From Antedon mediterranea (lineage: Eukaryota > Echinodermata > Crinoidea > Comatulida > Antedonidae), in assembly GCF_964355755.1 (NCBI RefSeq), contig NC_092671.1, forward strand, positions 35,543,304-35,607,303: a stretch of 64,000 nt of DNA. The letters are read 5' to 3'. The stretch's first letter is position 1; every line of letters begins with the position of its first letter. A model generated the notes under the pieces. That model had not been told where the DNA came from, searched no databases, and saw only the letters and a list, made by a program, of their open reading frames with translations. Below are positions 51-26,148 of this stretch, piece after piece. A program made the position numbers and the translations under genes.

Positions 51-3000
51 TCACTTAAATATTCCATCGAAGTTTCTAGTTGGACGACAAAGTGACGCAG
101 AACGCGATGTTCTGGTCATGTCTTCATAGAAGCTATCTGTTGTGGAGACGACGCTAGCCGAGCGGGAGAACGGTCTGATACTGCCTTCGTAAGTTGAGGC
201 ACGGCTGTTCTGTCGTTGTAGAAACCCAACATCTGTTGGACAAGATGGATTGACTCCTGACCTTAGCGAACCTTCTCTCGACAGGCCGTTCACTTCGAAA
301 GGAGGACTGACGTCTGCAGAAGGGGAATAAGGTGGTAGCGAACCTTCTCTCGACAGGCCGTTCACTTCGAACGGAGGACTGACGTCTGCAGAAGGGGAAT
401 AAGGTGGTCCTTGTTCGTTCTCAACAACATTCGGAAGACGACCGCATGCTCTACTGAAGGCATCGCCGACAGTACTGTAGGTAACTTCTTCTTGTACAGG
501 TTGTTGATTGGTTGGTCGAATGTTGTCCTCATACGCATCGACACGATCACTTGTTTTGAACCGAGTATGGAGTAAATACGGGTTAGCTGAAAAAAGACGT
601 ATTTTGAAAATGATGACAAAAATGAATTGATTACCGGAATATAAAAAGGACACAAGTCCATTATTTAGCCAAATTGAGTTAAACATAGAAAATGTTCACT
701 TATTCATTCATTCATTGATTCATTCATTTTCTGATACAAAAAAACAAAAAGAGAAATAATCCAGAAAATTAACAATAAAGCATAGGGCTACCTTGTGTAT
801 GAATCATGGACCCAAGTCCACTCACTAAGTACTATTAACACGTGATAGAATACTGGTATTATACTAGAAGGGCCCCAATACCATGCCAGGGACTACGGGC
901 TTTCTTACACACAATAGATAACGCCCTCTGTTGACGAATATGTAGGTTTCACTGTACAACACAATACATGAATTTGTCTATTGTCTTAAACGCGTTCCCA
1001 TAATGCAACAGAAGCGCGTATAATCATGTACTATATCATTTTACATTTAGATATGAATACATAAGTTGTTATATAATCAAGAATACCAACAATAAATAAT
1101 TCAATAAATCATGATGTTTTTAAATATTTTCACAAAACACTATTGTGTGAGCTTGGGCCCATTGTTCTGGATAACTAAGTTGAAATACACCCAGAAAAAT
1201 GGTCAAACATTGCTATCATGAGGCTTTTTTCTCTCTTAAAATGTTACGTCGTTATAACGTATTTTACCTTGTGTCTTGGGGGAGGGTGGAAGAGGAAGAG
1301 GAAGAGTTACGGACGACATTCGATGAACTCTTTTCTTGTTAACCTTATTTTCATTGGAAAATGTCCTGAAAGACCAGATAATGCTTAGTTAGATAGATTA
1401 GATAGAAATTGACTTATCAAGCAATATTACTAATATTAGTACTTAGGCCTAAGCTATTATGGGCTGTTTAGATATAAGGGAATGGCAACCATCGATTTGT
1501 TGATTTTCCAGAAGAAAATAATTGAAATGATCTTGAAATAACTGCTAAATAAAGTTGAAAACAATGTTTAAGTAATCGTAGACGAACTAAAGCTAAACAT
1601 ACAATGTGTGGTCATTTATTAGGTAGGTGGGTATTAGGTTTTATGTAGTAGGCCTACAACAAATTTTGTTATTGTGGCTAGAAGCTGGCCAAATAGAACA
1701 CCTCTAGAAACTATTAGTGTAGGCCTATTATTGATTTTGATAACTCAAGAAACGTAATAGAAGATAGGCCCTACCGTATATAGACGAACTACAACTAAGC
1801 CTACAACTATGTTTGTTATATATACATCATCATTGTCGGTAGGCCTATAGAACCGAATAGATCTTACCATCGTCTTAGTTCACGTGCTTGGTTCTTTAAG
1901 CTGCAAATGAGAGCAATCACGACAAAAACAGACAGAGTGCCACAAACTACGATTAAAGCAATCGACACCGTTGTCAATTCCTCTCCTTCTGTAGTTGGTG
2001 AGTGTGATTTACCCGATCTTGGAGTTTCAGGGCCTTTGTACAAACAACAAACACAATCAATGGAAGTAAGGCCAACAATTATGCCTAACATAAGCATAGG
2101 GTCTAAGTAGAAATAAATAAGGTCTAATAAGCTAATTGTTATTTTTTTAAAAATAAAATAAATTATAAATAAACACCGGCGCAATGTATAATTTAAACTT
2201 CTATTACAAATAAACTAAAAAAACATAAAATAGAAAGGGTTATATCAATCACTTTGCATAATAGTCTTTCTTTCTACCTATTATTTTCTACGCAAATCAT
2301 TTTTTTTTCAATAATATCACGTCGTTATGGTTTATTAAAGTAACCTCATCAACAGCCTATTTTAAGCAAATGATAAACAGAAAATAAAGAATAATAAAAC
2401 TAACAGAAGCTATCGTGTAAAACATAAATTAAAGCAGATTTTAAAAAGAAAATACGAAAGCGATTATAAATGGCTGGCTTTGTCAGTCGAATTTGAAATT
2501 GCTTATTTATTTTAAAAACTGAATTAAGCAAAAGCATTGATTTATATAAAATTAATTTTAACCTAACCGAATTTATTTATTGGCAATTTTATGAGCACGT
2601 TACATCCAATGAGCGTTTTTTAAGTTAGCAGTGTTTTTTCCAATTCCTGATTAAACAAGCTAATTCAATCTTTGTGCGGCGAGAGTTGGTTCGAATCCAA
2701 CTCTCACCGCATTGCTTGTATCCTTAGGAAAGACACTTTACTTACATTTGCCTGTCTCCACTCAGGTGTATAAAATGGGTACCCAGTTAGATCAAGACAC
2801 AACTTTGCGCTGATTAATTATGTTTCCATACTTGTTTGATCAAAAAATGACCGAGGTAATACTGAACAGCACATTGAGAGCTTGCTTATAATATGCGCAA
2901 GTATGAACTATTATTATTATTATTATTTTTATTATTTTACGATTTTTATGCTTTATATATGCATCTACTCATTCTTTCTTTCATTTTCTTTTTTTTTCTA

Positions 3001-6000
3001 GCAGTGACTAGTTAAATAAATAAAAACTAGTAAGTTTTTTTTAAATGCACATTTTCGGAAAAAAAGTCTTAATTACCGTCCGGTACTTCTTTGCTGACCA
3101 CCAGTGTGGTCTTTATACTCTGTGTAACAGATTGAACCTGAGTATTTCCGAGTTTCAATTTACTAAAAGAATTCAGAACACATCAGTTAGGCCTATTTAT
3201 GAACATTACCTTTTCCATTTATTTGGCCATCTCCTCGAATATGAAATTATATACTTCAGATTAATTCTGAAATGATCGAGTCTGAGTCTTTGTTGGTGAT
3301 CATCTTAACTTTGCCGGACAAACACGCAGGGCCGTAGCCAGCATGAGGCAGATAAGGCGCTCGTCTGAGGCAGTTCAATTTTCACCATCAACCCCAATTT
3401 CCCAGAACCGATCGTCATATTTTATATTAATAATTATATTTAAAGCATCTTTGCCTCGTCTGTTTTTAACCTCTTGCTACGGCCTTGACACGGCAAATAA
3501 TTATTGTTCAGCATTATAGCATGGCATTTTAAGACTACAAAATAAAACCTATAATTACCAAATTGAGGCATCTTCGTCCCATACATGTCTTGACGAACAC
3601 TTGCAAGTTCCATCTTCATTGCAACCGTATGCTTGGCATTTCTCTGCACACCCTGGTGGTTGATCATCCGCTTCAGATTCCTCACAGTGTTTACCACCCC
3701 AACCAGCATTACAGTAACACTCACCAGTCTCTGGATGACATGTACCACCATTAATGCATAGACACGTGTGTACGCAGTCTGGCCCCCAATTTATACACCG
3801 TTTTTCACAGTACTTTCCTTCGTATCCAGGCTGGCAAGCACATCGACTATATTCAACAGTGGCTTCACACGTCGCATTGTTTCGGCAACAATTTGGAAAC
3901 CAGCCGCATTGTACGTCTACACCATCAGCACATGTCTCAGAACAGTCAATGTCACCATAGCCAACATCACACTGACATTCACCTGTAAGAGGATGGCAAC
4001 TATCCACGCAATCACTGCAATGAAGATCACAGTCTTTACCGTACGTTCTACGAGTACACTCCTCACCACATGTTACTCCTTTCCAGCCTGGAGCGCAGTC
4101 ACATTCGCCAGTGACCGGGTCACATGTACCACCATTACTACAACTCGGACATTTGTGTTGGCAATCTTGACCGTATACGCCTACTGGACATGGTTCACTA
4201 CAGTACTCACCAGTCCAACCGCTAGAGCAAATGCATTTTATGTTACCATTAATGCTACGGCAGCTACCTCCATTCTGACAGCATTTGTGATCGCATACTT
4301 GTAAAAGGCTTGTCTCTTTTTCACAATCTGTGTAAAGGTAAAGTTCTAAGTAAGAAATGCATGTTAACGAAATGCAACGAAGGATGTGTGTGTGTCTTTT
4401 ATTAGGCCTACAATCGAATACAAGATTGTTTACTGATAACTGCAAACATCGTGTTAAGTAAAAGTTTTCAACACTCGAATAAATTAAAGATAAATATGCT
4501 TACCGTTTTCACAACTATTTCCAGTTTCATGAAATCCGGGACGACAATACAACTCAGTTTCTATGTATTGGTTGCAAACCTTCTCAGATTGTGTAGTTGT
4601 TCCACTGAATTAAATGACAAAATACTATTACAAGAATCGTAAAATTACGTGTGCAAACATGGAATTGATTTCACACAGTAGGTTGACTAACAATGTTAAG
4701 TTTAAAAAAAAATACGAATAGAATATCTTTGCTATGTTTGGTACATTATTACGTAACAACCACTAAATAGGCCGAATTGATGTTATTTTGTCTTTAACTG
4801 GGTCAAGTAAAGATGATCTTCGTTCGATTTAAAAAAAAAATCTCTTTCGTTTTTTAATAGTACATCTTATCAAATGGTCAATACTCTTACGTTAATATTC
4901 TGCATTGGATATCTTCACAGTATTCAAGTTCGTATTCTTTAACTTCAACAATTATAGTAGAAATTCCCCACTTTGTAACACTAAACGAAAGAGTTGTATT
5001 TTGAATATAAATTGTGAATAACACATTATAAGATTAGTATATAGGCTAATAATAATAATATTTATTTGGAACAACACTTATCAGTCGTAGATGGTGCGTC
5101 CATACCAATTACAAAATTTAATACAAAAACAATGGAAAATAAAAACTGAAATTAAAATAAAACATATTTGAGATAATGACATAACATTTGACTCGACGCT
5201 ATTACAAAACTTATTTTAATGTAAATAAAGTGAAATATAGTGTTTGTATAGACGCCTCAAGAAACTAAATAAAGGTTCTTTCGAATTAAAATTACTGTAT
5301 GTCCTTATCATTATTTGTTTTCCATAATTGAAAGAGTTTAGATTTCACACTTTCTTATTCTCGTAGGCTACTACCGTACAGTAACGAAGAAGCCATATTG
5401 AAATATCGAATCTCAGCACCGTCACGTGATTGTATTTCATCCATTTACAAAGCATAACAGTTTCCTTGAAATTCAGTTTATTTTTCGTTTGAATGATTGA
5501 TATGTTACTTTCGATTAAAGTTGTTTTTGTTTTCCTTCTCGAATATTTTCAGACAGTTTATATTTTAAAAATGCAAATGCTTCAAAGGACAAAATGATTT
5601 TCAATTTCAATTAATTGGCTTCACTAATTTGTTTTAAGTTTTCTTTTTTGTACTTTAAAGGTGGGAGCCAATAATCACATTTCTAACATTGTATCACCTT
5701 GTCAACTAATGTAAATGAAGGGAAGATAAATGCACAAAGTAAAATTTACCAATATAACCTGATTTAACAAAAATTGAATACTTTGTCCTGTTTAGGGTTA
5801 AAACACGTGTTTATAGCTACATGTTGTTTTCCTCCACTCGTTTAGCAGTCAACATGTCACTATTATGTTCAATTTCTCCACATGTTTAGCAGTCAACATA
5901 TTTAGGTACGTGTTTAGCGTTGCGTGCATACGATTTTACTGTGGCGGATAAAAAGCTCCACACATGGCAAATTAAACACGTTTAGAATCTAAACGTGTCT

Positions 6001-6681
6001 TTATATTGCTCCACAACAATCATCACGTCACTGATGTGTTGAGTTGACTACAGACTACATGTTTAGAATGTGTTTAGAACCTATGTTTCATATATAAACA
6101 TGTTTAAGGCTAAATGTGTCGAAAAGTGGGTACAAATACATGTTTTTTAAGATCTAAGCACTATTACAGTGTAAAGATGTAGCTAAACCTTACTAACGAA
6201 GAGTAAGAGTTAACTTTCTTTCTGGATTGTTTGATTTAACCATAAACTAGTTTGGTTAATTATTCTGATCCCGGCAACATGCTATATTTCGAGGAAATGG
6301 ATGGATACCATAATTCTACAAAAGTGTAGTATTATGCATTTGTTTAAGTGATATTTTAAATAGATTTTTCAGAGCCCCAATAGAAACTTTCCTAGGCTAT
6401 TCCTTGCTTTCAGAGTTTCCAATTTTCCTTCTTAAAGAGTTTTTGTTTATTATCTTAATAATATAAATTAAACACAAAAAGGCAATAATTTTATGGGTAA
6501 TGGGTAAATAATTTATAATCCAATCAATCTAATTTTCGAAAAAAAACCCCATTTATGATTAGTATATTACAACTTACTTTCTAGACAACACGTTCTTGGC
6601 TCCCAGCTCAAGACTACTACTGGAATTCACCAGAAAAAGACACAATAAGCCTAGCACAAAGTGAGACGCGAAATGCAACAT
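51..6681 (-). CDS. EGF-repeat single-pass receptor (Draper/MEGF/SREC-like), intact copy
   Basis: Exons in gene order on the minus strand: 6681-6578, 4980-4891, 4604-4504, 4327-3559, 2033-1868, 1365-1268, 586-51. Joined phases agree except between the EGF exon (ends phase 2) and the membrane exon (starts phase 1), so at least one short exon of 3n+2 bases was not found. Exon 1 encodes a hydrophobic signal peptide (MLHFASHFVLGLLCLFLV). Exons 2-3 look like a degenerate EMI region ending in a CRPGF motif. The large exon encodes about 255 residues of EGF/laminin-type Cys repeats (for example CSNGGTCDPVTGECDC). The 1868-2033 exon holds the membrane helix followed by basic residues. The tail (1268-1365 and 51-586) is Ser/Pro-rich with VTYSTV (ITIM-like, about 468-485), YEDM (YxxM, 117-128) and two PPYSP motifs. 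The family comprises phagocytic and scavenger receptors at the cell surface; an engulfment or immune role is inference. Confidence 0.85.
265..408 (-). repeat. 72-bp in-frame tandem duplication inside the receptor tail
   Basis: Two head-to-tail 72-base units, starting near 265 and 337, differ at about one base (gaaagg versus gaacgg). Each encodes 24 residues beginning PPYSPSADVSPPF, so the reading frame is kept and a PPxY-type motif and its Ser-rich context are doubled. The near identity points to a recent duplication. Confidence 0.93.
2660..2945 (+). mobile_element. tRNA-derived SINE
   Basis: A perfect RNA polymerase III B-box (GGTTCGAATCC, about 2693-2703) is followed by a SINE-type body with a 'cctgtctccactcaggtgta' segment and a TTA/ATT-rich tail near 2911-2935. 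The tRNA-like head is degraded upstream of the B-box. It lies in a receptor intron. Confidence 0.7.
3328..3489. mobile_element. Possible hAT-like MITE
   Basis: The ends CAGGGCCGTAGC and GCTACGGCCTTG form an imperfect terminal inverted repeat about 160 bp apart in a receptor intron. No clear target duplication is visible, so the assignment is weak. Confidence 0.4.
5045..5275 (-). mobile_element. LINE 3' end fragment
   Basis: Read on the minus strand, this AT-rich stretch ends in an AATAAATATTATTATTATTA tail, like the 3' ends of the other LINE remnants in the window. It lies in intron 1 of the receptor. No coding part is left. Confidence 0.4.
5800..6180. repeat. Repeat rich in 'acacgtgttta' words, shared with 14860-15170
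   Basis: Segments such as 'tagctacatgttgttttcct', the following 'ccactcgttta' and 'gtcaacatgtcactattatg' recur almost unchanged at 15011-15070. Both ends contain related words (aagatctaa, acatgttta) in inverted orientation, so this looks like a small inverted-repeat element. It occurs once in each of the two paralogous receptor loci but in different introns, which suggests independent insertions. Confidence 0.6.
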
Positions 6682-7009
6682 TTCGAATTCTTATTTCGAC
6701 CAGGTCGCATCCGACATTTCCGACATCGCAACGCTTTCTAATAAACTCACACAATTACAATTTTCATTGAGTAAGTGTTTCTGTTTCGAATTTACTTCCT
6801 TCTTTCGATGGCAAATAAATAACCTATCACCTCAAAGGTGATTAAAGTTATATTGTCTTGTGTCCAAGTTTCATAAAGTATGAAAATTCGTCTTATTTTA
6901 GAGCATTATAAAAATACATCTGGAGCTGCAACATTTTGAAAAATAATATTAATAGTACATTTTTGTAAAATATTCTTACATATATATTCGTCATTCATGT
7001 TGTTGAACA

Positions 7010-7380
7010 ATATCGATCGACGATAAATATATAAGCATGCATATTTTTTTTCAATAAAATAAAAGAAATTAGAAAGGTTTTCGTTCTAGAACTATAGGAT
7101 AATCATTTATGCTGTCTTTGAAAAAAATAATATTTTAAAAATTCCAATCATATGACGTCATGATGAATAAAAACAATAAAATCGTTGTACTGTCACGATA
7201 TTATAATCATGACGTCATTTGATTGGACGTGTGAAAATATCATTTTCATCAAAGGAAGGGTAGATGGTTATTCTATAGTTCTAGAATGAAAGTTTTTTGT
7301 TTTGTTTTATGTATGAAAAATTCCTTTGTCTATTTATCGTCGATCGTTATCGTTATCCTCCTAGTGTAAATGGACCTTTA
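7010..7380. mobile_element. MITE, 'AAGGCCCxTTTACACTAG' family
   Basis: Inverted halves are visible: tctagaactataggataa (about 7086) pairs with ttattctatagttctaga (about 7270), and the outer arms carry cgatcgacgataaat and atttatcgtcgatcg. The right end reads gtgtaaatggacctt. A better preserved relative lies at 47634-48083. The 5' terminus is degraded. Confidence 0.75.
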
Positions 7381-7850
7381 TACCATGGGTAACTACATTC
7401 TCATTCTAACCGCCAATATCAATTCAGCCAATGAAAGTAGGCCTATACCTAACTGTTATACTTTCCCCCTCACAGATATTTGACGATGAAATAAAAATGC
7501 GTTAAACAATAAGTAGTTCTCTGAAATCCTCTCTATAATAATTATAAACATTAGTCAACAGTTGTCTTAAAATACTACAGAAACCAAAAGTATCTGTCAT
7601 TCAAGTTAATTTCAGTTTTTTTTAACTATCGAACTAATTACGATCGAATCCAACGCTTATTGTTTCGCAAAATAAACTATGCCTAAATTAAAAATATAAT
7701 GCAAATACAAGTATTTTACACGTTCAAATTTAGCTATAAATGATAATTCACATTTTAACTGTAAATCAATATATTCTCAAAGTACTTTGTTCTACTAAAA
7801 AAGTAATACAACCTCGTTAATAACGGAAAGATAATTGTACAAACTTAGAT

Positions 7851-8900
7851 GGTTCTCGAATACATAGTAATTTCAGCGTAAAAAAACTGGCGATTTCAAA
7901 TGTACGTACGGCAGGACTATAAAACATTGTCGCTTACAGAAACAAATAAATAGACACAATGAAATATGTAATCAACCAAAATTAGCACCTAGAAACTTGT
8001 CACAAAATGAGTCGAAATTTGTTATTTGGACTCATTTAAACAAACCCAATTTTGTTAAATTATTCTTTATATATCTTTATTATCCAATCAGTAACGAAAT
8101 ATTTTTTTTATAGGCCTATAAATAATATAGGCCTACTACTAAATAGAGTAAAACATTTCCGATTTAATACTTTATTAAAACTGTCACTGTCTCATGGTCG
8201 ATTGAAATAGTAAAGTACATTTAAAGACCACTAATACGTTTATATTTTTGTAATTATTAATTAATACAAACGTTGAGAAACAACTGACAGTAATAAAGTA
8301 TTATATTATTATGTGTTTATAATCTAAAAGTAGGGGCTACCCACACTCACAGTGATAACGTTTATTAGTATATTTGTTTATATTATATCTAACAGTACCA
8401 ACACACTTTTGATTCAAATGGCGATCAAAAGTGGTTAATACCTATTTGCAGTATTGTATAGCATTACAATACAATTTTTGTTTATTCTCCAAGGGTCTAT
8501 AAATTTACCTACTTGTGTTAAACCATGGAGGTATGCAATACTGTACTCGAGCTGTTCAACCGGTTTTCAGCCATTAAAAACAGTTATCGTAGGAGGAGAT
8601 AGGAAAATGCGAAGCATCATCGTATTATTGTATGCGGGTATTTTTCACGATGGACATGTATTAGACAGTGTATACCACGATCGGAAAACACCCCTATTTG
8701 GGGCAAATCGTTGAACCTGAATTCATTTTAATTGTCAATAACTAATTATCTGACTCAATTTAATTAGTAAACAGGGTTACATCAGGTGGTTAAAATCAGT
8801 ACCGAAAGTACGAACCAACTTTATATACCATCGAGTAAACATTCTAGAAGTAACGCGCGATTTACCGAATTTTGCCCTTACGTAAATTTATATATAGACT
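7851..8900. repeat. Local duplicated block, copy A
   Basis: This non-coding block is homologous to 8949-9580 and 9581-10617. Shared landmarks are ggttctcgaatacatagtaa, ttgtaattattaattaatac, gtaggggctacccacac and atcgtaggaggagatagg. A weak ORF at 8454-8714 is not conserved as protein in the other full copy, so I treat the block as repeat DNA. Confidence 0.85.
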
Positions 8901-8935
8901 AGATGGTACTCTCGCTTCGCTCGCGTACCATCTAG
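8899..8935. repeat. Hairpin at a block junction
   Basis: CTAGATGGTAC and GTACCATCTAG flank a 15-base loop, tctcgcttcgctcgc. The hairpin sits exactly between copies A and B of the local duplication. Confidence 0.85.
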
Positions 8936-9082
8936 GTCGTGCCCACATATGGTTCTCGAATACATAGTAATTTCAGCGTAAAAAAACTGGCGATTTCAAA
9001 ATGTAGGCCTACGTACCGCATGACTATAAAACATTTATTTATGTATTTATGTAGTCAACCAAAATTAGCACCGTGCGAATTA

Positions 9083-9580
9083 CTTCCAAAAGAGAAACTT
9101 CTCACAAAATGAGTCCAAATGTTTGATTTGGACTCATTTAAACAAACCCAATTTGTGTTTTGTATCTAACATTATTGAGGGTTGGGTTTTTTTTAATAGG
9201 CCTATAAATAATATAACACTAAATAGAGTAAAACATTTCCGATTTAATAACTGTTAAAATTGTCACTGTCATAGTCGATTGAAGTAGTAAAAGTACATGT
9301 AACGATACACCACCACGACGTTTATATTTTTTTGTAATTATTAATTAATACAAACGTTGAGAAGCAACTGTCAGTAATAAAGTATTATATTATTATGTGT
9401 TTATAATCTAAAAGTAGGGGCTACCCACACTCACAGTAATAAAGTTTATTTGTATATTTGTTTATATTATAATAAACAGTAGGCCTACCAACACACACAA
9501 TAAGAAATTTGCGATTCAAATGGCTATCAAAAGTGGTTAATACCTATTTAGAGTATTGTATAGCTTTACAATACTATTTA
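9083..9580. repeat. 498-bp tandem unit 1 (within copy B, 8949-9580)
   Basis: The segment starting 'cttccaaaagagaaacttct' is repeated head to tail at 9581-10078 with only a handful of differences (for example cacactcac/cacattcac, acgttgag/acattgag). Copy B begins at about 8949 with ggttctcgaatacatag. Confidence 0.92.
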
Positions 9581-10617
9581 CTTCCAAAAGAGAAACTTCT
9601 CACAAAATTAGTCCAAATGTTTGATTTTGACTCATTTAAACAAACCCAATTTGTGTTTTGTATCTAACATTATTGAGGGTTGGTTTTTTTTTTAATAGGC
9701 CTATAAATAATATAACACTAAATAGAGTAAAACATTTCCGATTTAATAACTGTTAAAATTGTCACTGTCATAGTCGATTGAAGTAGTAAAAGTACATGTA
9801 ACGATACACCACCACGACGTTTATATTTTTTTGTAATTATTAATTAATACAAACATTGAGAAGCAACTGTCAGTAATAAAGTATTATATTATTATGTGTT
9901 TATAATCTAAAAGTAGGGGCTACCCACATTCACAGTAATAAAGTTTATTTGTATATTTGTTTATATTATAATAAACAGTAGGCCTACCAACACACACAAT
10001 AAGAAATTTGCGATTCAAATGGCTATCAAAAGTGGTTAATACCTATTTACAGTATTGTATAGCTTTACAATACTATTTATGTTTATTCTCAAAGGGCCCA
10101 TAAATTGACCTACTTGTGTTAAATCATGGAGGTATGCAAGCATGGTTAAACCAAATAATTTGGAATGTTCCATTCATCGCAAATCAATACATTTGTATAA
10201 AATTATATTAAATCTATCAAAATAGTATTTTTTTAAGAAAATCGGCCTGTCTTCAACATTATGATACTGTACTCGAGCTGTTCAACCGGTTTTCAGCTAT
10301 TAAAAACAATTATCGTAGGAGGAGATAGGAAAATGCGAAGTATCCTCGTATTATTGTGTACAGGTATATTTCATGAGGACATCCATTAGACAGTGTATAC
10401 CACGATCGGGAAACACCCTATTTGGGGCAAATGGTTGAACCTAAATTCGTTTTAATTGTCATTAACTAATTATCTAACTAAATTTAATTAGTAAACAAGG
10501 TTACATCAGGTGGTTAAAATCAGTACCGAGATTCTAACCAACTTATTATACCATCGAGTAAACATTCTAGAAATAACGCGCGATTTACCGAATTTTGCCC
10601 TTACGTAAATTTATATA
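9581..10617. repeat. 498-bp tandem unit 2 and copy C of the local block
   Basis: 9581-10078 repeats unit 1. It then continues through the part shared with copy A (10079-10617). Relative to copy A it carries about 128 extra bases near 10136-10263, between 'ggaggtatgcaa' and 'tactgtactcgagc'. The extra piece could be an insertion in C or a deletion in A. Confidence 0.88.
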
Positions 10618-11001
10618 TACATGCAATGCGTTTGGTTATCATTCGATCATCTGTGAAATCGAGCGCCAGCTTGTCCGATGAAGATTACTCTTCGTACCCC
10701 ACAAAAGGAACAATCCTTTCTACAGACTTAGCTGGTACAGTTCGTTCATGTTTTCGAAGATTGGCCGATGGTCATCAGAAGCTATAAAGATAGCAATTAT
10801 ATTTTTATTAAATCCATTTTACAAGATAATATTAGGGAAGAGTGAATTCCCCGATAACATGTATCATTTTTTAAGTTTGTTTCTTTATTTCCATTTACAC
10901 CAAAAAACATAAACAAAAATAAATATTCATAAATAAATAAATAAATATTCATTACAAAAATGAAAGAATGAAAATATATAATAATCAGAAACACCTCATG
11001 T

Positions 11002-11111
11002 AACTGAATTTATTTATTTATTCAAATTGCTTCGAAGAACTGAATTTATTTATTTATTCAAATTGCTTTGAAGAACTGAATTTATTTATTTATTCAAATT
11101 GCTTCGAAGAA
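11002..11111. repeat. Three tandem 36-bp repeats
   Basis: The unit 'aactgaatttatttatttat' + 'tcaaattgcttcgaag' starts at 11002, 11038 and 11074 with a single base change (cg to tg in copy 2). It abuts the 5' end of the LINE fragment. Confidence 0.92.
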
Positions 11112-11119
11112 TGGAGAAT

Positions 11120-11991
11120 AGGATAATAAATCCGTATCTAGTCATTGTCATCTGGGGGTCATGATTAATAGTGAACTTACTTGGGATGATCATGTAAACT
11201 TAATTATTTCTCGTTCAAATCGAATGTTGGGTTTTATTACTAGTATTGCAGGAGGATCATCCCCTTCAGCTATTTTCTCACTCTATAAAGCTCTCATTGT
11301 CCCCATCCTTGAATATGGTGTCCCAGCGTGGTTGCCTCGAACCAAAAAACTTACAGAACGTATCGAGGCAGTCCAGCGAAGGGCTACTAGGCTTGTCCTT
11401 AAACAAACAAGAGGTGAAATGGAATACGAGGAACGTCTCACTAAGCTAAATTGGCCTACACTATCTAATCGAAGAAATTATCTTCTGTTATCCTTTGTTT
11501 GTAAATCACTTATTGGAACGGTTGATTGTAGTAGTGTTCGTCAATCTTTAGTTGTTAATGGCCGTCACCTTGATACACTTAAGTTCATTCATCACTATGC
11601 TCGAACCAATTGTCTTCATCATTCCGCTATTAATATATTCCCTAGGTTGTGGGAAGAATTACCGGAAATGATTAAAAATTCTTTAATTTTAGACAGTTTT
11701 CAAATATTTTTAAATTCACTTAAATCACATGTTTTATATTGACTTTGTTGAATCGACTATTATGTATTTTATCCGTTTATTTTATATTGACACTGTTGAT
11801 TCGTCTATATGTTTTTTAAATATTTTTATATAGTTTATTTTATATCATTGTTGTTACTTTGGGAGTACGGAACCTGAACTCTTGTTATAGTGATTAGGTT
11901 CACTTTTAGGTTCCTGCCTACTCCCTTAGTTTCTGTGTTTTGTTTGTTTGTAACTGGTTTTTTTGGCAATAAATAATAATAATAATAATAA
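11120..11991 (+). mobile_element. 5'-truncated non-LTR retrotransposon (LINE)
   Basis: An open frame of at least 193 residues (11161-11742) is the C-terminal part of a CR1/L2/Jockey-type reverse transcriptase. Visible motifs are ELTWDDHV, SLYKALIVPILEYG, AVQRRATRL and, at the end, FPRLWEELPE and SFQIFLNSLKSH. The frame is continuous from the HLGVMI motif just before 11161 and stops at 11742. A 3' UTR and an (AAT)n tail (about 11969-11990) follow. The catalytic core and any ORF1 are missing, so this copy cannot move by itself. It sits where the paralogous receptor at 12122-16306 would be expected to have its cytoplasmic exons. Confidence 0.88.
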
Positions 11992-12666
11992 TAAACACAA
12001 TGAAATATATAGCCCTACAATGGCACAATGGCAAAACATATGGAAAAATATATACAATGGCAAAATAAATGTAATATATATTACACTTTTATAAGTACAT
12101 ACCTCTACTATTTTTACTTTTTTACTTATATATTTTATATGAAAGGAAAGCAATGGCCATGATAATGATTAAAGCAGCAGACGACACACACACAGTAGCA
12201 ACTGAATTCGATGAAAGTAGCGGCTGTGTTGATGAGTTTGTTGTTGTTGGTGCCTTTATAACCGGGGGTGTAGTGACAGTTGTTAGCGGTCGTTGGTATA
12301 ACTCAGGCTTCAGATCTACATAGAATGAGAACATCCACATTTGGTGTAAAGTCAGATCTCAAGGATATCAACATGAAATCTCTCTTCAATCATAATTCAT
12401 TGACGGAAATGTATTAATATACTATTCAAGTTCGGATATAATAAGGACAACAAATTATTCATAAATTTCATTTAGGATATAATAATTAATAATAGGCCTA
12501 TCAAGTGTTCCATAATTATAATTTGAAATTGTTATTTTGGAAGTTACCTGTTGTATTTACTGTTGTGGTGATCAGATCATGTATAGTACTTTCTTTTGTT
12601 GTTGTCGGTACTGAAAGAATACAGATATTAACATTATTGTTAATTTAAATAAATAAACCTTGATTA

Positions 12667-12788
12667 CAAAAAGTGATGTGCCCATATATGGACATGATGA
12701 TGTCATATTACTACCATATTTGGGCATATCACTACCATATTTGGGCACATCACACTTTTTTTGTCAAACTAGTTTGATAGTGTAAACG
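12667..12788. mobile_element. PIF/Harbinger-like MITE, partial
   Basis: It has the family's 'gtgatgtgcccatatatgg' core, the two 'actaccatatttgggca' repeats and the right arm 'aaactagtttgatagtgta'. The left terminal repeat is missing. It lies between two stalk exons of the pseudogene. Confidence 0.75.
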
Positions 12789-14589
12789 GCATGGTATAAA
12801 GACCATAAATAAATAATTATTCACAATAGTATATGGTATTGATTAGTTATCAATGATAAATTAATTATTTAAATCGTTTATTAATCAATACAAATGTGTT
12901 TACAAAAAATTATATTTTCTTACCGAAATCATATGTTTTATCTAATATTGTGGTGATTAGATCATATACTGTAGTTTCTTTTGTTGTTGGTACTGTGGAT
13001 ATAAGTATATGTATTTGTCAGATGATTTTACTATAAAAACGACTTCTTCGAAACCAAAAGATACCATCGAAGTCTGGACCCCAATGGAATTAAGTATTTT
13101 ACTTTTGGGATATTCATCTAACTCTAGTCTTACTGCTTTTATAATTTTTAAAATATTTATAGCCTATTGTAGGTTTTTGTCTTAATAAATAAAATCAATC
13201 AATCACAGTATTGTATTGACTCATCATGCTTTATAAATCATTTTAAATCATATAAGTTTGATAATTTGATTTTACTTTAACAACTAAAATGTTATGAATT
13301 ATTATTAAACATGCCTTACATTCTTTAATGCTTACGGTTGAAAACTGAATAATTTCAGGTTCCAGCATACTACATATAAAAAAACAAAATACACGATACG
13401 ATTAATTTGAAATTGATAATTTTCCTAATATGGTTTGTTAAATATGCGCTCGTTTGGTTAATAAAACAGGAAGATATCAAATATATAATTGCCATCATGA
13501 CAACAGTGATCAAATGAACGCCTGGCTAGAGTTGTAGAGGTAGTGGGGTTGAGAATACAATTACGTAACAATTGGGCAACATCAGAATAATCAGATTAAT
13601 TCATTTTAATTACCAAAATGAGGCAATGTCGTCCCATACATGTCTTGACGAACACTTGCAAGTTCCATCTTCATTGCAACCGTATGCTTGGCATTTCTCT
13701 GCACAGCCTGGCGGTTGATCATTCCGTACAGATTCCTCACAGTGTTTACCACCCCAACCAGCAACACAGTAACACTCACCAGTCTCTGGATGACATGTAC
13801 CACCATTAATGCATAGACACGTGTGTACGCAGTCTGGCCCCCAATTTACACACCGTTTTTCACAGTACTTTCCTTCGTATCCAGGCTGGCAAGCACATCG
13901 ACTATAATCAACAGTGTTTTCATTCTCTTTTCATTTTCATGTTTCGGCAACAATTTGGAAACCAGCCGCACTGTACGTCTGTACCATCAGCACATATCTC
14001 AGAACAGTCACGGTCACCGTAGCCAACATCACACTGACATTCACCTGTAAGAGGATGGCAACTATCCGCGCAATCACTGCAATGAAGATCACAGTCTTTA
14101 CCGTACGTTCTACGAGTACACTCCTCAGCACATGTTACTCCTTTCCAGCCTGGAGCGCAGTCACATTCGCCAGTGACCGGGTCACATGTACCACCATTAC
14201 TACAACTCGGACATTTGTGTTGGCAATCTTGACCGTAGACGCCTACTGGACATGGTTCACTACAGTACTCACCAGTCCAACCGTCAGAGCAAATGCATTC
14301 CATGTCACCATTGTTACGACAGCTACCTCCATTCTGACAACAAAGAGTTCAAAGTTCACGACTGCATGTTTCGATAAGTCCTTTCTCTTTTTCACAATCT
14401 GTAAACAGTTTAAATAGTTTAAAGAAATAATAACACGCAAGGAGCAAATATTGAATGTGATGTGAAAATGATTTTCAACAAATGTTTGTTTAGAACAGCA
14501 GTAAGTTTTTTGTTTTTGTTTTATTTTTTGTGGTTAATTAATAATTAATGATTTCAAATAATATCTAATTTTTTCAATTCAATTCAACT

Positions 14590-14870
14590 TTTACTTTAGA
14601 CAATTGTCCATATGGTATAATGCATTACAAAAAAAAAAAGATGAAGGAGAGAGGACCAACACTTTTATTTATTGGTATATAATGCCTCTCTCCATTTGTA
14701 GTACATGTTTGAATCCATCAACACATATTTATATATACAAATTAAAATTCTGTTTTCGCTTTTCATTATTCTTGTAAGAAATGTTGGTGTTGTAAAATCA
14801 CTATAATATACAATGTACAAATAGTGTTTAGATCTTTTGTATTTGTACCAACTTTTCCACACATTTAGTC
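14590..14870 (-). mobile_element. LINE 3' end fragment with (TTGAA)n tail
   Basis: On the minus strand the end of a reverse-transcriptase frame (ILICIYKYVLMDSN) is followed by 'gagagaggcattatatacca' and an AAGTTGAATTGAATTGAA tail. The same module is found on the plus strand at 31880-32180 (MLICIYKYLLMDSK). Confidence 0.7.
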
Positions 14871-15170
14871 TTAAACATATTTAGATATGAACATGTTTAA
14901 ATACATTCTAAAAATGTAGTGTGTATCTATTTTGTGCCCCTTTTCTCATACATTTAGCTTTTAAACACGTAGTTACATGTTTAGCGTGTTTAAAACCTAA
15001 ACGTGTTTATAGCTACATGTTGTTTTCCTCCACTCGTTTATCAGTCAACATGTCACTATTATGTTCAGTCAACATGTTTAGGTACGTGTTTACCGTTGCA
15101 TGTGCAGGCTAAATGTGTGGAAAAAGTGAGTACAAAATACATGTTTAAGATCTAAACAATATTTAACACG
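14870..15170. repeat. Second copy of the 'acacgtgttta' repeat
   Basis: It shares several runs of 20 bases or more with 5800-6180. It lies in the intron between exons 3 and 4 of the receptor pseudogene. Confidence 0.6.
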
Positions 15171-16306
15171 TTATTATGATTATGATTATTATGATTGATT
15201 AAAGTTCACAGAAACAAAACCAAATAATAATTATTATTCTCTATATTTTAGACCTGGTTCAAATTTGCAACTTACCATGCATATAAAATACTATACAGTA
15301 TCGCCATTTATAGCATTACATTAATATTCATATACATTACTATTATTATTAAGGTACTTACCGTTTTCACAACTTTCTTCAGATTCATAAAATCCAGGGT
15401 GGCAATACAACTCAGTTTCTATGTATTGATTGCAAACATCCCGAGTTTGTGTAGTTATTCCACTGAATTTATATAATATAGTATGTTAGTACGTGACTTG
15501 AATTATTGTTTACGATTTGTCGATAACAACATGCTAATGGTTAGTAGTATAGACAACACATTATATTTACGTTATTATTCTGCATTGGATAATACCACTT
15601 CTGTAACCACCACAGTACTCAAGGTGGTATTCTTCAACCTCAACCAGTATAGTGGAAATCCTCCACTTTGTAACACTAAGAAAAACGAGAAAAAGTTACA
15701 TTATATAAGTGTAAAGGTAATAAGATAAGAGGATAAATTAATGCACATAAGTCTGGACAATAGCTGTAGAAATTGTTTGAGAATCACAACCCGACCACTT
15801 TAAGGCAATTATTTTAGTGTGTTAATTGTAGGTGGATATGTTTTAATCTATTTACACAGATAAGCAGTAATAATAACGGTAATAATAATTAAGAATCTAT
15901 TATTACTACTTATTATTTAGTACTTATAACAGTTTACACAAAACCTGAAGAGGACAGGCGGTTTACGCTCAGGTTAGATGCAGATTCTACGTGGGACAAG
16001 CTACGCTTACCGTACTGTAAATTGGCCTTAACTCTCGTCTCTTAATATTCAACTACATTCAGTAAAATAAGGCTAACTTGGAATAATCAATGGATATTAC
16101 TGACATTTAACGACAATTAGATTCTCCTTGATTCTTTTACCTAGTATATACTATTTTATTTACTAAAATAGTAATTAAAAATATTATTACACAACTTACT
16201 TTCTGGACAACACGTTCTTGGCTCCTAACTTAAGGCTACTGCCTACATTCACCAGTAATAAACAGATGAAGCTTAGCAGCACCAAGGATGACATAAAATG
16301 TGGCAT

Positions 16307-20749: not shown

Positions 20750-26148
<5,399 letters not shown>

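Follow-up and report, generated by a model that had tools for sequence, protein, structure and literature searches.

Within the window, the 64,000-nucleotide stretch of DNA analysed here (C2:35543304-35607303, from an assembly of 354 Mb in 18 contigs), two neighbouring genes probably represent an old tandem pair of paralogues in which the EGF exon of one copy, gene B, was converted and gene B was then inactivated, leaving it as a pseudogene or a null allele. The pair would have arisen by an ancient tandem duplication of a gene encoding a type-I membrane protein that carries EGF-like repeats, and B has since diverged across its 5' exons and introns as well as in its stalk and membrane exon. More recently its EGF exon would have been overwritten by, or exchanged with, that of gene A, the direction being possible either way, and a single long exon, still homologous enough, would have been the only part to undergo conversion. 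Later, and probably recently, a stop and a frameshift would have entered the EGF exon of B, so that no full-length receptor could be made from it.

Gene A

Both genes were remodelled on the minus strand by means of splice signals and exon phases. Gene A (6681-51) is intact, and in this model has 8 exons encoding 649 aa, with out-phases for exons 1-7 of 2, 2, 1, 2, 1, 2, 1. An intact copy with a tail had been recognised in the original prediction, and its phases are reconciled once two exons absent from that account are added, exon 5 (3162-3077) and exon 7 (1365-1268). Exon 5 is needed to bridge the phase 2 left by the EGF exon and the phase 1 in which the membrane exon begins, and exon 7 to do the same between the membrane exon, which leaves phase 2, and the last exon, which begins in phase 1; in each of the two introns concerned it is the top-scoring candidate that supplies exactly phase 2 to 1. 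The exons of gene A are as follows.

6578..6681, minus strand: exon 1, with the ATG and a hydrophobic signal peptide (hydropathy peak over residues 1-19), ending in phase 2 at donor AAA|GTAAGT
4891..4980, minus strand: exon 2, divergent N-terminal region, phase 2 to 2, no EMI match
4504..4604, minus strand: exon 3, Cys-containing, with C-PGF-C, phase 2 to 1
3559..4327, minus strand: exon 4, the intact array of EGF-like repeats, 256 aa of which 45 are Cys, phase 1 to 2
3077..3162, minus strand: exon 5, linker or stalk, phase 2 to 1, from splice signals and phase only
1868..2033, minus strand: exon 6, transmembrane segment, hydropathy 3.0, phase 1 to 2, acceptor weak and donor strong
1268..1365, minus strand: exon 7, first cytoplasmic exon, phase 2 to 1, from splice signals and phase only
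51..586, minus strand: exon 8, cytoplasmic tail with TGA stop, in which 72 bp are tandemly duplicated in frame at 264-408

The hydropathy of the protein peaks at residues 1-19, the signal peptide, and again at residues 408-426, giving a single membrane span. The tail encoded by exons 7-8 is about 220 residues long and Ser/Thr/Pro-rich, and nothing else in the whole 354 Mb assembly matched it significantly. At 264-408 in the tail exon, 24 aa (PPYSPSADVSPPFEVNGLSREGSL) occur twice through the 72-bp tandem duplication, with the copies 98% identical; the duplication appears to be recent and is possibly polymorphic.

Type of protein encoded by gene A

The EGF exon of gene A matches the Pfam families hEGF, EGF and EGF_2 above their curated cut-offs, and we infer that the gene encodes a cell-surface receptor or adhesion protein. 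The EGF repeats of MEGF10/11, Draper and CED-1 follow a NGGTCDPVTGECxCxPGWxGxxC-type spacing, and gene A resembles these proteins in being type-I, with a signal peptide, an EGF array of this type, one span and a tail. The original prediction had gone further, in calling one exon EMI-like and the protein a phagocytic receptor, and neither label is upheld. With E allowed up to 5-10, Pfam gave no match to the EMI domain in A or B; searched genome-wide, the Pfam EMI model hit 16 places, none inside the window; and against a profile built from the genome's own EMI exons A and B score no better than shuffled sequence. The motif scan of the gene A tail found NPxY and YxxL/I 0 times each; an ITIM-like site, VTYSTV (chance P 0.27), and a YxxM site, YEDM (chance P 0.06), occur once each, numbers within or near those expected by chance.

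The cytoplasmic motifs described for MEGF10 and CED-1 are NPxY and YxxL (PMC1762421, PMC8092387), and the EGF-like repeats number 17 in MEGF10 and 18 in CED-1 (PMC1762421), whereas gene A has about five or six, all in a single exon. Membership of gene A in the MEGF10, Draper and CED-1 group was rejected because EMI is unsupported by three tests and the tail has neither motif. Among the best receptor structure matches are the EGF region of Tie2, the Angiopoietin-1 receptor (2gy5, E = 8e-21), and SCARF1 (8hna, E = 4e-10), but the likeness is confined to EGF repeats, which are common to many unrelated receptors, and no kinase or Ig domains such as those of Tie receptors were found in gene A. A phagocytic or signalling role would be a guess from architecture only.

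Gene B and its lesions

In gene B (16306-12126) exons 1-4 are followed by a linker exon, a pair of Thr-rich exons and a membrane exon; of all these the EGF exon alone is not open. Its exons and lesions are given below, the linker, stalk and membrane exons being placed solely by splice signals and phase.

16200..16306, minus strand: exon 1, signal peptide, intact
15571..15675, minus strand: exon 2, intact, five codons longer than gene A exon 2
15362..15462, minus strand: exon 3, intact
13614..14398, minus strand: exon 4, EGF exon, 91% identical to that of gene A, with a TGA and a net +7 frameshift
14349..14351, minus strand: in-frame TGA, lying among 12 bases inserted relative to A (CSREL*TLCC against CDHKCC in A)
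about 13919..13943, minus strand: net +7 patch, a divergent ATGAAAA-rich segment of ~30 bases, frameshift with one Cys codon lost
13320..13369, minus strand: linker exon, phase 2 to 1, from splice signals and phase only, absent from the earlier account
12924..12992, minus strand: Thr-rich stalk exon 1, phase 1 to 1
12548..12610, minus strand: Thr-rich stalk exon 2, phase 1 to 1
12126..12315, minus strand: membrane exon, in phase 1, start fixed by the acceptor AG, followed by TAA or a weak phase-2 donor AA|GTAAAA

Most of what had been predicted for this copy is borne out. The in-frame TGA is present at 14351-14349, inside the 12-base insertion, the frameshift is a net +7 in the divergent patch at about 13919-13943, and the Thr-rich stalk exons, two in number, lie at 12992-12924 and 12610-12548. 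An aa identity of 57-61% shows these two exons to be related and points to an internal exon duplication. Both lesions are in multi-base divergent segments rather than homopolymer slips and are therefore unlikely to be base-calling errors, although they were read in a single assembly and could belong to one bad allele. An internal acceptor at 14326 would on paper bypass the TGA in frame, but the site scores -2.9 and the +7 shift is not rescued by it.

The predicted lack of a cytoplasmic exon also stands, as nothing resembling the tail exons of A was found near gene B, nor was a second copy of them found in the 354 Mb assembly. When the frames behind phase-2 acceptors were enumerated between B and A, the candidates were short, many lay in repeats or antisense to the LINE, and none resembled the tail of A. 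The membrane exon of B is directly followed by TAA, and the identical bases can be read as a phase-2 donor, as in A, with a score of 3.2 against 9.2 in gene A.

The intact exons 1-3 followed by the TGA predict a secreted-type product of 120 aa, which could conceivably be a decoy. A premature stop with several junctions downstream makes a transcript a candidate for nonsense-mediated decay, and since the TGA comes after 120 codons with several junctions still to follow, transcripts of gene B are such candidates. Gene B has frame-disrupting lesions relative to an intact homologue and retains its introns, as an unprocessed pseudogene does, and judged from its sequence it most likely has no function and would give no receptor protein.

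Divergence between the two genes and probable gene conversion

The two loci had been held to match exon for exon. It is apparent that this is so for exons 1-4, over which the tandem minus-strand loci are homologous and the phases of the first three junctions are identical (2, 2, 1), but the membrane exons agree in position and entry phase only. Similarity between the linker exons and between the membrane exons is not significant, the best tblastn match of the latter having E of about 0.8 and blastn giving none; the introns and 3' exons of A and B give no blastn alignment, save for a dispersed repeat in non-corresponding introns.

Over the exons that do align, identity is 91% in the EGF exon and 74-86% in exons 1-3 (blastn). 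For exons 1-3 dS is 0.405 and dN 0.183, against a dS of 0.064 and a dN of 0.063 for the EGF exon and a dS of 0.045 for its core. Synonymous changes are found at 5 of 114 sites in the EGF core and at 19 of 62 in exons 1-3 (Fisher P = 2e-6), and when all sites are taken the contrast in divergence between the EGF exon and exons 1-3 has P = 2e-13. A tract with far lower synonymous divergence than the remainder of the pair is what gene conversion leaves, and because dS is 0.06 in the EGF exon and 0.41 in exons 1-3 the EGF exon of B has most simply been homogenised with that of A by conversion. Genome-wide the EGF exon was found at the A and B loci only, with the next best matches about 40-55% identical. 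The alignment of the two copies breaks off no more than about 6 bp from either boundary of the exon, and divergence is greater at its 5' end than in its core, a pattern such as conversion limited by missing flanking homology would give. Unusually strong synonymous constraint could in principle also keep dS low, yet a sixfold to ninefold local gap is much to expect of it.

On these figures gene B is an old diverged paralogue and not a young decayed copy of A. The earlier view of B as a decayed duplicate holds to the extent that pseudogenisation is the best reading; it does not hold for the history of the gene, which is that of a diverged paralogue (dS about 0.4) with the EGF exon alone homogenised.

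Constraint on the EGF exon

A comparison of dN and dS between the EGF exons had been proposed as a check on decay, and gives a ratio near 1. This does not amount to free decay because the structural residues have been kept. There are 27 amino-acid changes between the EGF exons of A and B, with 0 at Cys, which makes up 45 of the 256 residues (P = 0.004), although the test assigns no change to A or to B, and if half of the changes occurred in A the P for Cys in B is about 0.05. At Cys, Gly, Tyr and Trp together 1 change is observed against 9.6 expected. As the changes avoid these residues, both EGF exons would have remained under constraint during most of the period after conversion, and the lesions of gene B are probably recent.

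Alternative explanations

It is possible to see the lesions as a segregating null allele, or as an artefact of assembly or haplotype, with the typical gene B being an intact tail-less EGF receptor. That the lesions are read from one assembly, that the remaining exons of B are open and that the EGF exon has kept its pattern of constraint would all fit such a reading, which is nonetheless unlikely, as the lesions are complex, multi-base and atypical of sequencing error, and two independent lesions on one allele require time or a non-functional background. A good deal less credible still is a recent duplication of the whole of gene A, decayed as a unit after loss of the cytoplasmic exon. The tandem arrangement on the same strand, the common exon-intron layout, the broken EGF exon and the tail exon that was not found are what would be expected of it, but exons 1-3 have a dS of 0.4, the introns cannot be aligned, the linker, stalk and membrane exons have no detectable similarity, and no exon of B other than the EGF exon is decayed, so that the EGF exon greatly understates the age of most of the gene. 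We regard this as very improbable.

Gene B might instead yield a functional membrane protein with neither EGF repeats nor tail, able to regulate gene A or act as a decoy for it, if exon 3 were spliced to the first Thr-rich exon. But for the +7, the EGF and linker exons form a symmetric phase 1-1 cassette, and the phase 1 in which exon 3 ends fits the stalk, which begins in phase 1. The product would be in frame and about 212 aa long, with a signal peptide, the N-terminal region, a mucin-like stalk, the span and about 6 cytosolic residues; it would retain both hydrophobic segments, and every exon used is open and has splice signals. However, phase-1 introns commonly lie on both sides of extracellular modules in genes of this type, and skips that keep the frame are therefore expected by default. 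The product would also be without the EGF array, the sole part that was homogenised and shows constraint, and gene B scores below gene A both at the donor of exon 2 (4.5 against 6.5) and at the acceptor of exon 3 (3.3 against 6.7), all of which makes such a protein improbable. A more elaborate version, in which B is kept as an EGF-less, tail-less, mucin-stalk regulator of A, skipping the EGF and linker exons, while its EGF exon serves as a conversion donor that diversifies the array of A, we consider quite improbable. If B did make the skip isoform, or did act as a donor, a broken paralogue would still be shaping an intact receptor.

An old pair with a converted EGF exon and an inactivated gene B thus remains the preferred reading. 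Identity limited to an exon between diverged tandem paralogues, one of them broken, is a known outcome of birth-and-death evolution combined with conversion, and the pair looks like ordinary birth-and-death of a receptor family with gene conversion. It is like other partially converted tandem duplicates with a pseudogene, in that identity is limited to an exon and the partner B is broken, but differs in that the converted exon of gene B alone bears the lesions; our search of the literature found no identical case. The pair would be a clean, small example of two old tandem receptor paralogues that underwent exon-limited conversion before one was inactivated, and carries the caution that a single large exon of high identity can disguise an old paralogue as a fresh pseudogene copy.

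Repeats and neighbouring sequence

A truncated LINE was predicted downstream of gene B in the place of the missing tail, and is present.

about 11124..11994, plus strand: 5'-truncated LINE, C-terminal part of the reverse transcriptase, A/T-rich 3' repeat, downstream of gene B

The LINE gives no account of the missing tail, and was rejected as its cause since it lies beyond the membrane exon, is young, and insertion alone deletes no exons. Its family has at least 40 genomic matches, most of them 96-100% identical over the same 3' part and one 100% identical over 871 bp. With so many copies at 96-100% identity the insertion would be young, and the family appears to have been recently active.

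Between genes B and A, at 9080-10079, there is a 499-bp tandem duplication with 98% identity, with what seems to be a further, more diverged relative of it at about 7855-8870. The dispersed repeat shared by the introns of the two genes is A/T-rich, with ACATGTTTA-type words, and partly inverted; it lies at 5789-6165 in intron 1 of A and at 14820-15163 in intron 3 of B, positions which do not correspond. On the plus strand at 20752-23900 a cholinesterase/carboxylesterase-like gene of several exons, with a GESAGG motif, was noted by eye only.
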